Shown piece after piece: positions 11,793-17,180 of a stretch of 21,569 nt of DNA. The stretch spans positions 1 to 21,569 of the IMG/VR virus record IMGVR_UViG_3300030107_005372, one strand, 5' to 3'. The notes beneath the pieces were generated by a model. The model was not told the DNA's origin. It did no database searches and saw nothing but the letters and a program-made list of their open reading frames with translations. The position numbers were made by a program, and so were the translations under genes. This DNA comes from a virus. The first letter of the stretch is position 1. Each line of letters starts with the position of its first letter.

Positions 11793-12362
11793 ATGAGCAA
11801 GAAAAACCTTTTAAACGAATCTACAATTCGTAAATTTATGAAGTTGGCCTCTATTGAGCCTTTGGCTAGTGATTTCATTAGCAAAATTCAAGAGAGCGAC
11901 GAAGAAGAAGTGCGTGAATCCGAGGAGGACATCGAAGAAGCCAAGCACGACGAAGATGAAATGCGTGAAGGTACTGACGAGGAGATTGGAGAGTCTTTTG
12001 AGGAAACTGTAGATGAGATGAGACCATCTTACGACAGGGACGACGACGAAGACTTGGAAATGGATCTAGAAGAGCCAGCCGCAGAAGCAGGTGGAATGGT
12101 ATCCGTTGACCAGTTGATGTCTGCGCTTGAAAAAGCACTCGAAGATGTACTCGGACAAGAAGTTGAGGTTTCCCAAGACGATGAGATGGAAGAACCAGAA
12201 GCTCTAGAGGATCCATTGGGAGCAGGTGACGACTTAGAAGCTCCAGAAGAAGAGGAACTTGAAGAGTCAGAAGAGACAGAATTGGAAGAAACTAAGACCG
12301 AAGAAGACATTGCAGAAGCGGTGTTCAGAAAAGTTTTAGAAAGATTGTCTAAAGAAAAATAA
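11793..12362 (+). CDS. strongly acidic protein, possible prohead core/scaffold or internal protein
   Basis: 189 residues from ATG 11793, supported by AAGGAGAT at 11778-11785; an upstream in-frame TTG at 11760 is unlikely. The N-terminal 34 residues are a non-acidic amphipathic segment (LLNESTIRKFMKLASIEPLA). After that the chain is dominated by Glu and Asp: 72 of 189 residues, about 38 percent, with Pro/Gly breaks and a moderately hydrophobic helix around 102-120. The last 25 residues return to a mixed helix. No cysteine or tryptophan is present. Acidic helical proteins with a distinct N-terminal tag are known as phage prohead core or internal proteins; DNA mimicry is another explanation. Its transcript probably ends at the hairpin at 12402-12429. 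Confidence 0.75.
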   Translation: MSKKNLLNESTIRKFMKLASIEPLASDFISKIQESDEEEVRESEEDIEEAKHDEDEMREGTDEEIGESFEETVDEMRPSYDRDDDEDLEMDLEEPAAEAGGMVSVDQLMSALEKALEDVLGQEVEVSQDDEMEEPEALEDPLGAGDDLEAPEEEELEESEETELEETKTEEDIAEAVFRKVLERLSKEK

Positions 12363-12370
12363 TTTAAAGC

Positions 12371-12399
12371 TTGAATTTTTATATATCTTTTGATATAAT
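12371..12399 (+). promoter_or_regulatory. sigma70-type promoter overlapping a terminator
   Basis: TTGAAT at 12371-12376 and a perfect TATAAT at 12394-12399 with 17-bp spacing. The expected start site, near 12405-12407, falls inside the left arm of the terminator hairpin that follows. New transcripts would therefore lack most of that arm and escape termination, while transcripts from upstream would be stopped. It would drive the block starting at 12439. Confidence 0.75.
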
Positions 12400-12401
12400 A
12401 G

Positions 12402-12429
12402 GGGCAGCCTAATGGTTGCCCTTTTTTTT
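12402..12429 (+). terminator. Rho-independent terminator
   Basis: GGGCAGCC at 12402-12409 pairs with GGTTGCCC at 12414-12421 (8 bp, one G-U pair) around a TAAT loop, followed by eight T at 12422-12429. It should end the transcript of the acidic-protein gene. GGAG, the ribosome site of the next gene, starts on the base after the T-run. Confidence 0.85.
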
Positions 12430-12438
12430 GGAGTTAAT

Positions 12439-12816
12439 ATGAATATTTGGATAGCCGCAACTTTATTTTTTGGAGGCGCTTTATGCCATGCTTTTATGTC
12501 TAGACTGATAAGAACGTATCAGTGTTTAAAATTTACTGTTGAGTTAACCAATCAGCTTGTAACCTTGGTATCTCTGGTGTCGTATGACCTGTCAGTCGCA
12601 CTAAAAAAGAAGTACGACTCACTTGAGGAATCAGGCATGTCGCCAGAACAAATTAGCATTGAGAAAAAAACAGATAAACATATTATTAAATCTTGGAAGA
12701 TTGTTTTCGCCCAAAAAACATTTGCCTCTTATCCAAAAGTATTTAGAAGTTTGTTAACTAATTTTGACTGGGATGGTGCTTTAAAGCCATTGGATGATAT
12801 TTATGAAGAAGAGTAA
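12439..12816 (+). CDS. membrane-anchored protein of unknown function
   Basis: 125 residues from ATG 12439, chosen because GGAG at 12430-12433 sits 5 nt upstream; an in-frame ATG at 12412 lies inside the terminator hairpin and is unlikely. Residues 2-20 (NIWIAATLFFGGALCHAFM) form a hydrophobic segment followed by R22 and R25, as in an N-terminal membrane anchor rather than a cleaved signal. The remainder is helical and charged, with SYDLSVALKKKYDSLEE and an acidic end (DDIYEEE), so it would sit in the cytoplasm. No family is recognised. It is first in the block with the ClpP-like protease, 21 nt upstream of it. Confidence 0.7.
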   Translation: MNIWIAATLFFGGALCHAFMSRLIRTYQCLKFTVELTNQLVTLVSLVSYDLSVALKKKYDSLEESGMSPEQISIEKKTDKHIIKSWKIVFAQKTFASYPKVFRSLLTNFDWDGALKPLDDIYEEE

Positions 12817-12837
12817 AACATCATTAAGGTTGGAATT

Positions 12838-13527
12838 ATGAAAAAAATAAAAAGGTTACACACATCATCTCGCTTAGAAAGTGAGGCAGAAAACGATGAG
12901 AAAAAGACAGAGGAAGAGATTGAAAAAGAATTATCTGATGCTCTAGGGGACCTATTCCAAGTCAGTGCACCCCAAGAGTCTACATTAAGAATCGCTGAAT
13001 TATATGGAATTATTGATGAGGAAATGGCTAGCAATATTGTTGCATCAATGCTAATCCTCAGAGATAGCGGAAGAGAAGCCGCCCCGGAAGATGACAAGGG
13101 TGCGGAAACTTATAAGCCTTTTGAGCTTTTCATTTCTACCCCCGGAGGAACAGCAGTTGATATGTTTGCCATCTATGATACCATGCGTATGGTAAAGGAA
13201 GATTGCGAAATTCACACAATAGGAATGGGAAAGGTAATGTCAGCAGGTGTCTTGCTCTTAGCAGCAGGCACCAAGGGCAAGCGCAAGATTGGTGCCAACT
13301 GTAGAGTAATGATACACAGCGTGATAGGTGGACATCACGGCTCTATTGAAAATCTAGAGAATGAAATGGAAGAAGTCAGATGGGTGCAACAGCAGCACAA
13401 CAAGGCTCTTTGTGAAGAGACAGACCTAACACCAAGGATGTTAAAAAAACTATTGTCTCGCAATGTGAATGTATATCTCACAGCACAAGAGGCAGTTGAG
13501 TATGGCATTGCCGATATTATTGTTTGA
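12838..13527 (+). CDS. clpP: ClpP-like serine protease
   Basis: 229 residues. After a charged 45-residue extension the ClpP fold follows: LFISTPGGTAVDMFAIYDTM at 97-116, the nucleophile region GMGKVMSAGVLLLAAGTKGKR at 129-149 with Ser135, RVMIHSVIGG at 156-165 with His160, and TAQEAVEYGIAD at 215-226. Aligned by hand with E. coli ClpP, the triad Asp (D171) falls on Ser207 in LLSRNVNVYL, so Ser-His are present but the usual Asp is not seen. ClpP normally degrades unfolded proteins with a Clp ATPase; no such ATPase is in the window. In phages, ClpP-fold proteases also act as capsid-maturation proteases. The N-terminal charged segment lacks the normal ClpP start, so it may not dock to a Clp ATPase. 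Confidence 0.88.
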   Translation: MKKIKRLHTSSRLESEAENDEKKTEEEIEKELSDALGDLFQVSAPQESTLRIAELYGIIDEEMASNIVASMLILRDSGREAAPEDDKGAETYKPFELFISTPGGTAVDMFAIYDTMRMVKEDCEIHTIGMGKVMSAGVLLLAAGTKGKRKIGANCRVMIHSVIGGHHGSIENLENEMEEVRWVQQQHNKALCEETDLTPRMLKKLLSRNVNVYLTAQEAVEYGIADIIV

Positions 13528-13536
13528 GGATAAAGA

Positions 13537-13980
13537 ATGAAAGAACTACTAACAGAGTGGCGAAACTTTATCAACGAAGAAAAAGAAACGATAATGTTTC
13601 CAGCAAGGTTTCTGAAATCTCATATGGGAGAATACAGAACCGAGCCAAAGTGGAGAAACTTTCTAAAACTCGGAGACGAAGAAAAAAGAGAATGGGCTGA
13701 AACTGTTGATACAAAAAGCAATCCAGTAGAAGTCACAGTTTTTATGGACGGTGTTTTTGGTTTTGGCGATGGACACCATAGGGTGATGGCTGGGAAAGTT
13801 TTAGGCATAGACATTCCTATTGTCATTACTCATAACCACATAAAAAATAAAGCCCAACCCGGAACTTGGGAGGCTTGGTGGAAAGAGGTAAGCAAAGGAA
13901 ACAGCCCAGCCCAACTCAATCCAGAGGGTTATAACCTAAGAAGCCCAGAGCAAGTCAAGGAGTTAGAGGATAAAGTATGA
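13537..13980 (+). CDS. ParB/sulfiredoxin-like DGHHR-motif protein
   Basis: 147 residues. The motif GFGDGHHRVMAGKVLG at 75-90 matches the core of the ParB/Srx superfamily (GxxR or DGxHR followed by a helix and a Gly-Ile/Val strand), which binds nucleotides or phosphate and includes CTPases, nucleases and the DGQHR proteins of phosphorothioation systems. The next strand IDIPIVITHN fits too. The first 16 residues, MKELLTEWRNFINEEK, are a distinct amphipathic segment that resembles N-terminal tags of T4-type capsid-targeted proteins. The C-terminus is Pro/Trp-rich, with GTWEAWWKEV. It starts 9 nt after clpP and overlaps the next gene as ATGA. No partner ParA is visible, so partitioning is unlikely. 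Confidence 0.65.
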   Translation: MKELLTEWRNFINEEKETIMFPARFLKSHMGEYRTEPKWRNFLKLGDEEKREWAETVDTKSNPVEVTVFMDGVFGFGDGHHRVMAGKVLGIDIPIVITHNHIKNKAQPGTWEAWWKEVSKGNSPAQLNPEGYNLRSPEQVKELEDKV

Positions 13981-15563
13981 AAGAACTAGACCAACTTGTA
14001 GAAAACTTCTTCCAGCCTAAGCAAGATACACTTGGGCTAGACCAACTCGTTGAGATGGTTGAGCGGGTGATGAATGAAAGAAAAGAAGAATTGGGCGAGA
14101 TAGCCAAAAAGATTATAGTCATCTTCAGAGCAGAGAAAGATGAAGACGGTAATGTCGGCTCCTTTCCTGTTGCGCCCGATGCTACACTGAAGGGAAAGGT
14201 TACTTCGGGAAAAATTGTCATAGATAACACTGGCAGCCGGGGGATGAGAGCCAGCCTATTAAATAACAAATTAGGCTCTGACGACGACTTTGATGTTGAA
14301 ATTGTCAAGGTAGGAGACGGAACTACGGCAAAAGTGAGTTACCAAGGGGGTCAATCATTTTATTTAGTTCTGAGGAAGGGTACTGTTAAGGACAGCATCG
14401 CAAATATTGGAAACTTCGCCGAAGGCGTAACAGCATATGCCTTGGCAGAAAGAGTCATACAATACAAATCGGGGTATGACCAAACTAAAACAGGTGATCT
14501 TGGATATCCACAGACAGTACCAGAAGATATTTCTATTGACGACATTAAAAAACTCTCTAATGAAATGGAGTGGGACGCAGTAGAAAAAAAGGGAGACAAG
14601 AGAACTATAAAGAAAAAGAGATTTGAACTTGATGACGGAGATTTCCTTGAGCTAACTATTGGATTAGATAATGTTACTTGGAAAGACTTGGACGATATTA
14701 ATAAATGGACCATCGCACAAAGCACTGTCGCCTCTGCTGTGAAATTTGCAAACAGCAAATTTACCACCGGCTTTATAGACTCAAGTATGGACGGTATTGA
14801 CCGCAGGAAAAAGAAAGACGGCGATGTAATATATGTGACCGCAGACGGAGTTAGCGACCAAGAAGGCACCACAGCAGACTTAAATATTCAAATGAAAACC
14901 GCTGATGGAAACTACATCAGAAACTTGAAGACAGGTAAGATATCTCTTAAAACCAAAAACACAAAGCAGTTGGGTCAGGCAGGCAAGAAAAAGGAAGATA
15001 GTGTAAAGAAGTTTGTAAAATTCTTCAGTGACCTCTACGACTACCATCTGACTCCCCAAGAGTTGAACGACTTCAAAACTCTTCCCAGAGAAGACCTTTT
15101 CGGGCAGACGGGATATTTTAGCACTCTGTTTGATAGTGTCATAAATAGAGTAGAAAACAAGAGCACACCAAAGAAAGAGTCGTTCATAAGAAGATTGTCT
15201 CGCTTCGTTGTAGACACCGCTGGGGGACCTGACATTACATTGATTAAGTTATTGGACGATGACTATGTTGTATACGACTTGGCTAAAGAAATTGTTGAGG
15301 ACTTTGATATCAAACTTGAGAAGGTCATGACGAAAAGCGGTATCCCATATCTGTACACTTACATAGTTGGTAGACAGGGTACCGAATTGGCAGGAGAAAA
15401 ACTACAGCTTGTAGTTATGCGACCAAGAAGAGACGCCGATGGATTCCGATTCTATGTAGAGCAAGGCGACGACTACAATGCTTTCTATAAGTACGAGAGA
15501 GATCAGGTTAAAAAAGAAAAAGAAGAAGCCGAACAAAAACCCTTGACAAACCCACCACAATAG
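13977..15563 (+). CDS. large protein with PD-(D/E)XK-like nuclease signature
   Basis: 528 residues, ATGA-coupled to the DGHHR gene. The segment D301-L-N-I-Q-M, a short loop, then ISLKTK (S323 to K327) followed by NTKQLGQAG looks like a PD-(D/E)XK nuclease core, where Asp and the (D/E/S)xK pair bind metal; phage proteins with SLK...KQ.GQ are known, and I read this as the same type. The usual acidic residue before the Lys is replaced by Ser-Leu, so activity is open. The N-terminus repeats LDQLVE (residues 4-9 and 21-26), with an ENFFQPKQD tag. The 60-150 region is beta-rich with a TLKGKVTSGKIVIDNTGSRG stretch. The C-terminus is charged and Pro-ended. Alternative: a virion protein without enzymatic activity. 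The groEL -35 box lies in its last codons. Confidence 0.6.
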   Translation: MKELDQLVENFFQPKQDTLGLDQLVEMVERVMNERKEELGEIAKKIIVIFRAEKDEDGNVGSFPVAPDATLKGKVTSGKIVIDNTGSRGMRASLLNNKLGSDDDFDVEIVKVGDGTTAKVSYQGGQSFYLVLRKGTVKDSIANIGNFAEGVTAYALAERVIQYKSGYDQTKTGDLGYPQTVPEDISIDDIKKLSNEMEWDAVEKKGDKRTIKKKRFELDDGDFLELTIGLDNVTWKDLDDINKWTIAQSTVASAVKFANSKFTTGFIDSSMDGIDRRKKKDGDVIYVTADGVSDQEGTTADLNIQMKTADGNYIRNLKTGKISLKTKNTKQLGQAGKKKEDSVKKFVKFFSDLYDYHLTPQELNDFKTLPREDLFGQTGYFSTLFDSVINRVENKSTPKKESFIRRLSRFVVDTAGGPDITLIKLLDDDYVVYDLAKEIVEDFDIKLEKVMTKSGIPYLYTYIVGRQGTELAGEKLQLVVMRPRRDADGFRFYVEQGDDYNAFYKYERDQVKKEKEEAEQKPLTNPPQ

Positions 15564-15599: not shown

Positions 15600-17180
15600 A
15601 TGTCTAAACAATATGAATCAGGTCAGACCCTTCAGCAGAAGATTGCCAAGGGTATTGATGTCTTGGCTGATAATGTAGCAGCCACAATGGGACCACGAGG
15701 ACGCAATGTCATCCTACACCAAGAAGGTTCCAACCCAATCATCACAAAGGACGGAGTAACAGTCGCCAAGTTTGTTGACTTGGAAGACCCCTTTGAGAAT
15801 GTCGGCGTCCAAATCCTCAAGCAAGTAGCCGACCAGACTAACAATGATGCAGGGGATGGGACTACCACTTCTACGGTTTTGGCTAGGGACATATACAATA
15901 AGGCACAAAAATATATTGCATCTGGTGTTTCTCCCACGGAACTCAAGAGGGGAATGGACAAAGCCGTTAGGGAAGTTGTAGAGATTCTTAAAGAAAAATC
16001 AAAACCAGTTAAATCCAAGGAAGACATCAAACACGTCGCAACAATTAGCGCCAACGGAGATACTGTAATTGGTGACTTGGTTGCTACCGCGATTGACCAA
16101 GCAGGAAAAGATGGGGCTATCACTGTAGAAGAGGCTCGCTCTGTAGATACTAGCCTAGACATTGTAGAGGGTTTCCGCTTTGATTCTGGCTATATAAGTC
16201 CTCAATTTATTAACAATGAGAGGCGTCACGCTGTCGAGTATGAGAACCCATACATCTTGGTGACTGATGCAAAGATTGAAACAGTCGAAGAGATGCTGCC
16301 TGTTTTGGAATTGGTAGCGAGGGAGGGCAAGCCATTTGTACTCGTTGCTGAGAACATTGAAGGTCAGGCTTTGGCTGCTTTGATTATGAACGCGGTTCGA
16401 GGAACAATGAAAGTGGCAGCCGTAAAAGCTCCTCGCTACGGAGAAGAGAGGAGAGAGATACTTAAAGACCTTGCAATTTCTGTGGGCGCTACCTTCGTTA
16501 CAACGGAGCTTGGTCATGAATTTGGCAACGTAAAGTTGACTGATTTTGGCACAGCCAAAAAGATTAGCATCACAAAAAACATCACAACGATTGTAGATGG
16601 GCAGGGGGACAATGAGCAGGTGCAGGAGAGGATTGAAACTCTGAAAGAGACAATTAGAGAAACAGAAAGCCTTCCAGAGTGTGAAAAATATCAAGAAAGA
16701 ATTACGCGCCTAGCCAGTGGTATCGCCATCATTCGCGTCGGGGCACCTACCGAGATTGAGATGATCGAAAAAAAACATAGGCTTGAAGATGCACTGGAGG
16801 CTGTTCGATCAGCAAGGGAAGAGGGGTTGGTGTCTGGAGGTGGTGTCGCGCTTTTGAGGGCGACAAGAGATTTGAAAGTCGAATGTGACAACGAAGAGCA
16901 GGAGTGCGGTGTGAAGGTCATTAAGGGCGTGATGACATCCCCGGTCAGACAAATGCTGCTAAATGCTGGACAATCGCCCGATGTCATAATTAACGAGATC
17001 ATAAATTTTGAGGACGAGGACATAGGCTACGATGTGTATACCGGAAATTATGTCAATATGTATGAGGCAGGTATTGTAGATCCAGTAAAAGTGACTGCTT
17101 CGGCTTTAAAAAACGCCACTAGCGTTGTCTCGACTTTGATTACGACAAATCATTGTATAATTCAGACTACAAAGAACTAA
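15600..17180 (+). CDS. groEL: chaperonin GroEL (Hsp60)
   Basis: 526 residues. GroEL forms double seven-fold rings that fold proteins using ATP. The ATP site is complete: ATMGPRGRNV at 28-37, KDGVTVAK at 50-57, DAGDGTTTS at 83-91 with D86, SGGGVAL at 412-418, the catalytic Asp D397 in LEDALEA, and D494 in GIVDPVKV. Apical and intermediate domains are also conserved, including GFRFDSGYISPQF near 191-203. The C-terminus stops at TTNHCIIQTTKN without the GGM repeats that line the host cavity. No groES is adjacent or elsewhere in the window, so it would have to use host GroES or work without it, as described for some phage chaperonins. Its promoter is its own. Overall divergence from bacterial GroEL suggests a long-established viral form, not recent capture. 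Confidence 0.97.
   Translation: MSKQYESGQTLQQKIAKGIDVLADNVAATMGPRGRNVILHQEGSNPIITKDGVTVAKFVDLEDPFENVGVQILKQVADQTNNDAGDGTTTSTVLARDIYNKAQKYIASGVSPTELKRGMDKAVREVVEILKEKSKPVKSKEDIKHVATISANGDTVIGDLVATAIDQAGKDGAITVEEARSVDTSLDIVEGFRFDSGYISPQFINNERRHAVEYENPYILVTDAKIETVEEMLPVLELVAREGKPFVLVAENIEGQALAALIMNAVRGTMKVAAVKAPRYGEERREILKDLAISVGATFVTTELGHEFGNVKLTDFGTAKKISITKNITTIVDGQGDNEQVQERIETLKETIRETESLPECEKYQERITRLASGIAIIRVGAPTEIEMIEKKHRLEDALEAVRSAREEGLVSGGGVALLRATRDLKVECDNEEQECGVKVIKGVMTSPVRQMLLNAGQSPDVIINEIINFEDEDIGYDVYTGNYVNMYEAGIVDPVKVTASALKNATSVVSTLITTNHCIIQTTKN
17135..17161 (+). promoter_or_regulatory. possible weak promoter inside the groEL end
   Basis: TATAAT at 17156-17161 is a perfect -10 box, but the best -35 candidate, TTTGAT at 17135-17140, is only 15 bp away. 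It could add transcription of the genes from 17204 onward. The sequence is coding for groEL, so chance is a real alternative. Confidence 0.3.

Follow-up and report, generated by a model that had tools for sequence, protein, structure and literature searches.

The question raised by this locus is whether several neighboring phage proteins begin with cleavable tags that would direct them into the capsid, as is known for the internal proteins of phage T4. The window, by which we mean the whole 21,569-nucleotide stretch of DNA that was analyzed (a 21.6-kb fragment of virus record IMGVR_UViG_3300030107_005372), encodes on its plus strand an acidic protein of 189 residues (positions 11793–12362), a ClpP-like protease (12838–13527), a 147-residue protein referred to here as the DGHHR protein (13537–13980), and a protein of 528 residues (13977–15563). 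A first-pass annotation had placed T4-type tags, each ending in an (L/I)-x-E sequence, on the three proteins around the protease. In T4, gp21 cleaves after L/I-x-E, and ten residues of the internal protein IPIII suffice for targeting, with residues 4 and 7 mattering for targeting and residues 8 and 10 for processing (reviewed in PMC9026906). We consider it likely that the DGHHR and 528-residue proteins are cargo and that each starts with a capsid-targeting propeptide like those of the T4 internal proteins.

Results

The motifs that had been reported were all located (IQE at residues 32–34 of the acidic protein, INE at 12–14 of the DGHHR protein, and LVE at 7–9 and again at 24–26 of the 528-residue protein), and two more were present: LNE at residues 7–9 of the acidic protein, which the first reading had missed, and LTE at 5–7 of the DGHHR protein. 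Of 1300 genes in related phages, 39% carry [LI]xE within their first 34 residues, which makes (L/I)-x-E by itself weak evidence (three proteins out of three, p∼0.06); it is the leader as a whole that exceeds chance expectation. The relatives used here and below were found by searching viral contigs with the 528-residue, ClpP, DGHHR, and acidic proteins, and they range from close (85–94%) to distant.

The leader of the DGHHR protein (MKELLTEWRNFINE, 13537–13578, plus strand, predicted cleavage after Glu14) recurs in relatives and defines what we call class A, with the consensus MK-x-(L/I)-(L/M/I)-(E/T)-x-W-R-x-(F/Y)-(L/I/V)-x-E. Directly downstream of clpP in close relatives, other genes start with MKELLTEWRKFVNE, MKEILTEWRKFVNE, or MKELLTEWRRFLNE, and their bodies differ. 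A position-specific scoring matrix built from ten seeds and refined on its own hits was scanned over the 1300 predicted genes (∼20 records); at 12 bits or more it gave 43 N-terminal matches and 5 internal ones, with 0.3 N-terminal matches expected from the internal rate, an enrichment of ∼100-fold. Because the matrix had been refined on its own hits, the test was repeated without this circularity with genes chosen solely by their first eight leader residues, and [LIVM]xE then came next in 31 of 41 proteins, as compared with 2 of 20 internal matches and a background of 5.8%. These 41 proteins fall into 31 body families. One of them, in L035, matched falsely through a hydrophobic signal-like sequence and was later removed; among the other 40, the third residue after the Trp is aromatic in 36, the fourth is [LIVM] in 37, and the sixth is Glu in 28. 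Where residues are identical between leaders, codons agree in 52% of cases against 40% expected from codon usage, so it is chiefly the protein sequence that is conserved. The class A leader is a reusable module carried by many unrelated bodies within one genome, and a search for further carriers of the tag, as the first-pass annotation had proposed, yielded ∼40 N-termini in relatives. Against isolated phages the consensus tag gave one weak match only, the query being too short for that search, and the open-access literature yielded no description of these leaders.

The resemblance to T4 includes the spacing of the residues. Both IPII and IPIII of T4 begin with MKTYQEFIAE, and when the leaders are aligned on the Glu, Y4-x-x-F7-I8-x-E10 of IPIII falls in register with W8-x-x-F11-I12-x-E14 of the DGHHR protein, a correspondence of sequence only. 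A core pattern modelled on IPIII, its classes widened to similar residues ([FYW]xx[FY][ILV]xE), was present at 35 N-termini in the 1300-gene set, where 2.06 were expected. Run on pieces of T4 as a control, it returned ipII, ipIII, and 61.1; in the relatives it recovered leaders missed by the first pattern, such as MKNIWKKWEKFLTE ahead of a guanylate-kinase domain. The finding was replicated in 1039 further genes (73 loci fetched by the acidic protein), with the core at 15 N-termini and 0.41 expected, although a few of these matches are likely spurious and some loci nearly duplicate one another. The DGHHR leader is N-terminal, is common to unrelated proteins, ends in the gp21 motif (FINE14), and has residues corresponding to those that serve targeting and processing in IPIII.

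In one case, that of the window and L033, phages have exchanged a body, and the break lies inside the leader. Comparison by blastn and base by base revealed a single similar stretch, 95% identical over 421 bp (window 13564–13984, plus strand). From about leader codon 11 (TTTATCAACGAAGAA) the two are fully identical for the next ∼30 codons; the codons ahead of this break differ (MKELLTEWRN in the window, MKRLLENWNK in L033), the upstream flanks are unrelated, and similarity stops at the start of the next gene. The simplest reading is that the body was transferred between phages by a crossover that would lie within the leader.

The 528-residue protein bears a separate leader, class C (MKELDQLVENFFQPKQDTLGLDQLVEMVERVMNE, 13977–14078, plus strand, predicted cleavage after Glu34). 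These first 34 residues recur on bodies without clear similarity in L003, L006, and L008, on a body in L110, and on partly related bodies in L005; the bodies start to diverge directly after VMxE. The LVE sequences at 7–9 and 24–26 are disfavored as main sites because bodies diverge only after VMNE34. Class C is not among the N-terminal matches of the T4 core pattern; from its recurrence, we consider that the 528-residue protein probably carries a capsid-targeting leader. The body (14079–15563, plus strand), a putative nuclease, has no Pfam family above cut-off, it has no match among isolated phages, and its structure model is unusable (predicted local distance difference test score, pLDDT, of 35). 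It occupies a hypervariable slot ahead of groEL whose occupant varies through the family. In the window's clade the entire clpP–groEL interval (13537–15563, plus strand) is a variable island of one to four genes, nearly all with a leader, bordered on the right by GroEL in its conserved position (15600–17180, plus strand). In L118 (10347–11930) the class C leader is internal, lying in one open frame behind an acetyltransferase-looking domain, which suggests a fused precursor. Another open frame, in L005 (5109–7436), has the class C leader midway behind another domain, like two fused cargo genes.

Yet another class of leader, class B (MKITKSKLKQIIKEE), was noted on runs of small proteins (L085:8433–9955, L061:17262–19075, and L057:10017–11700). 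At 14 bits it gave 25 N-terminal and 7 internal matches. Its pattern had zero matches in the replication set (1039 genes, 73 loci), so class B is supported in the first set only.

The body of the DGHHR protein (13579–13980, plus strand) has a predicted ParB/sulfiredoxin (Srx) fold, as the first-pass annotation had anticipated in calling the protein ParB-like. Its model has a pLDDT of 82, Foldseek matches were to ParB, Noc, KorB, and sulfiredoxin (best E 1.4e-4), and comparison with structures (VIA) gave Z up to 6.4 over 72–79 residues, the listed matches being mostly ParB/Srx. The aligned range of the ParB fold starts mostly at residues 15–18, directly after Glu14. No match to the DGHHR protein was found among isolated phages, nor to its family in cellular genomes. 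A DGHHR-like region is also present within a protein of >1100 residues (L099/L100:1955–5281; 150/297-kb contig), possibly a polyvalent protein.

Other tagged bodies include M23 peptidases, a protein-kinase-like protein, a nucleotidyltransferase, NUDIX proteins in two lineages, and guanylate kinases in two lineages. A match to ART-PolyVal (ART, ADP-ribosyltransferase) on the tagged protein of L110 begins at residue 17; this match and the protein-kinase match are below Pfam's curated cut-offs. ARTs, kinases, Pol-beta nucleotidyltransferases, ParB, and peptidases belong to the toolbox described for the proteins that phages and mobile elements inject early (PMC5512222).

The acidic protein differs from the other two. 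Its family has at least 461 members in IMG/VR, with a conserved N-terminus, LLNE-(S/A/G)-xx-(I/V)-R-(R/K)-FMKLA, followed by an acidic central part and then by a C-terminal helix that is likewise conserved. An LLNE-type site is present in essentially all of 60 listed homologues; at the position of IQE34, [IL]xE is kept in the window's clade, not in the wider family, and because the wider family keeps LLNE9 only, this site is preferred over IQE34. The IRKFMKLA leader was seen on acidic homologues only and no unrelated bodies with it were found, so it is not a modular tag. At a guess, the acidic protein may be a prohead-core or internal protein like T4 gp67, an acidic prohead core protein with which it shares a short helical N-terminus, L-x-E-type sites, and an acidic low-complexity tail. 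Unlike that of gp67, its gene stands beside clpP and outside the head module, and the likeness found is one of architecture. The proposal of T4-type cleavable tags on three proteins holds for the DGHHR protein (recurrent leader, T4 core) and probably for the 528-residue protein (recurrent leader), while the acidic protein, whose leader is not modular, is at most a possible case. On sequence grounds, the more plausible processing sites would be FINE14, VMNE34, and, in the acidic protein, LLNE9.

A T4-type prohead protease, for which the first-pass annotation had recommended a search, is encoded in relatives: PF03420 (T4 gp21 family, S77) was present in 5 of 16 relative records, and gp23 in 7 of 16. 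In one relative (G012), the DGHHR protein (94% identity) is followed by another tagged gene and then by terminase-like, portal-like, S77 protease, and scaffold-like genes; another (G005) has the synteny of the window (IMP dehydrogenase, acidic protein, ClpP) together with S77 and gp23. The gp23 homologues have an invariant ELLRE[AS] close to the position of FLTEA in T4 gp23. In T4, gp23 is cleaved at FLTE and gp24 at LLRE. In some relatives, the scaffold-like gene is separated from the next head genes by a gene for a small basic protein resembling ribosomal protein bS21 (L066:15140–15376, L036:11008–11238); the equivalent gene in Microcystis phage Mel-JY01, a cultured relative, is annotated RpsU.

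The remaining genes of the neighborhood were named from their open reading frame sequences. To the left of the region lie, from left to right, a cysteine-synthase-like gene, a bacterial-type DNA polymerase III alpha subunit, dUTPase, and IMP dehydrogenase; to the right, GroEL is followed by a small heat-shock protein. A Gly/Met-rich low-complexity protein is encoded at 1255–1680.

Discussion

If the DGHHR and 528-residue proteins are packaged cargo, the leader helix would bind the prohead core, a gp21-type S77 protease would cut after Glu14 or Glu34 during head maturation, and the freed body would remain in the head with the DNA and be delivered into the next host. Relatives encode a protease that could perform the cleavage, and candidate (L/I)-x-E sites are available. 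Judged by these features, the system would work like the T4 capsid-targeting sequence, through the same kind of mechanism.

Several observations weigh against this explanation. The whole group consists of uncultured phages known from contig sequence alone; the window itself lacks head genes, so that its protease has to be presumed from relatives. The mutagenesis in T4 concerns another phage and a single protein of it. In about one class A leader in four there is no (L/I/V)xE in register, and the class C leader, which does not fit the T4 core, rests on its recurrence and its point of divergence, making the capsid-targeting reading of the 528-residue leader less secure. Mel-JY01, which has a fairly similar gp21, has no clear tags in 90 kb. 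Finally, tags are more alike within lineages than between them (6.49/9 and 4.96/9, with 0 of 5000 shuffles as high), which speaks for the explanation, but the comparison is one of related tags under a hand-made grouping of lineages; this likeness is as expected from a shared recognition partner and equally from local recombination.

Short, amphipathic, N-terminal, and modular leaders could instead be localization or docking helices unrelated to the head (membrane-binding amphipathic helices, replication-compartment signals, or docking sites for a host partner), the Glu being merely part of the helix, and the cargo enzymes could equally act when made inside the cell. We regard this as unlikely, the strongest though it is of the alternatives, because the aromatic-xx-aromatic-(I/L/V)-x-E register matches that of the targeting and processing residues of IPIII, folded domains begin directly after the Glu, and tagged genes in some relatives adjoin the head module, immediately preceding terminase-, portal-, protease-, and scaffold-like genes. 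That the leaders reflect chance or shared descent, as paralogous proteins or as a short common motif, seems the least credible explanation: although [LI]xE alone is common, the N-terminal enrichment was replicated in independent loci, the 31 body families have different folds, and the codon agreement described above leaves conservation mainly to the protein.

The remaining alternative concerns the protease. The first-pass annotation had correctly recognized a Clp-protease fold between the tagged proteins (PF00574, E 3e-34) and had given it the protease role in that module; in the window's clade clpP adjoins the cargo island, it is the constant neighbor of the acidic gene across the wider family, and its PHROG matches are head maturation proteases. 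Its processing of the tagged neighbors in place of a gp21-type protease is nevertheless very improbable, and ClpP was rejected as the tag protease because of synteny, its active site, and the separate S77 protease. In the window's ClpP and homologues of its clade (L004–L010), Ser and His are kept and an Asn aligns to the catalytic Asp, so that the canonical Ser-His-Asp triad is absent, the reference being E. coli ClpP. The position of ClpP does not fit an HK97-type head-maturation role either: ClpP sits with the acidic gene and GroEL, whereas in relatives the S77 protease adjoins portal-like and scaffold-like genes and gp23, and tag clusters in other, distant relatives lie far from clpP. In distant relatives, proteins of another kind directly follow clpP (L012:10609–11505, L014:4849–5748, L015:6955–7857), which are absent there in the window's clade; that of L012 has Amidase_2 and peptidoglycan-binding domains, and the L014 and L015 counterparts look alike.

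Capsid-targeting propeptides on the DGHHR and 528-residue proteins would have several known counterparts. Like IPI, IPII, and IPIII of T4, these proteins have a short N-terminal leader on unrelated bodies, with an aromatic-xx-aromatic-I-x-E core and an (L/I)-x-E motif, and a T4-type protease and capsid occur in the same lineage. Unlike in T4, the leader is usually 14 residues long with an extra KLLLEN-type segment ahead of the Trp, and there are more cargo proteins per genome, more enzymes among them, and two further leader classes, in uncultured distant relatives. The tagged ART-PolyVal-like protein of L110 recalls T4 Alt, a packaged ADP-ribosyltransferase, but is small, single-domain, and likewise known only as a sequence. 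The same toolbox appears in early-phase effectors and polyvalent proteins (Iyer et al. 2017, PMC5512222), to which the L099/L100 protein with its DGHHR-like region may be compared; the tagged proteins, however, mostly have one domain each and do not form one giant protein, and the term ‘capsid target’ is absent from that paper. Prohead proteases and ejection proteins of phiKZ-like giant phages also combine cleavage after Glu with propeptides on packaged proteins (PMC9026906, PMC7411985), whereas the protease here matches T4 gp21 (PF03420) directly. What would be new with respect to T4 is the lineage, the larger and more enzymatic cargo, the several leader classes, and the visible exchange event.

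More broadly, we lean toward a picture in which a large, mostly marine T4-like group uses interchangeable leader classes (ENWR, KITK, and LDQLVE) as sockets for rapidly exchanged effector enzymes that are packaged in the head and encoded in dedicated islands, the clpP–groEL interval among them, with recombination inside the leader swapping the cargo while the recipient's leader variant is kept. If this is true, the locus would illustrate concretely how cargo is exchanged at the boundary of a tag, and the leaders would be candidate capsid-loading tags for phages beyond the T-even group. The leader would then serve as a label by which injected proteins of uncultured phages could be read directly from their genomes, and phage-delivered proteins for host takeover and counter-defense, nearly all of whose genes are unannotated, could be listed.

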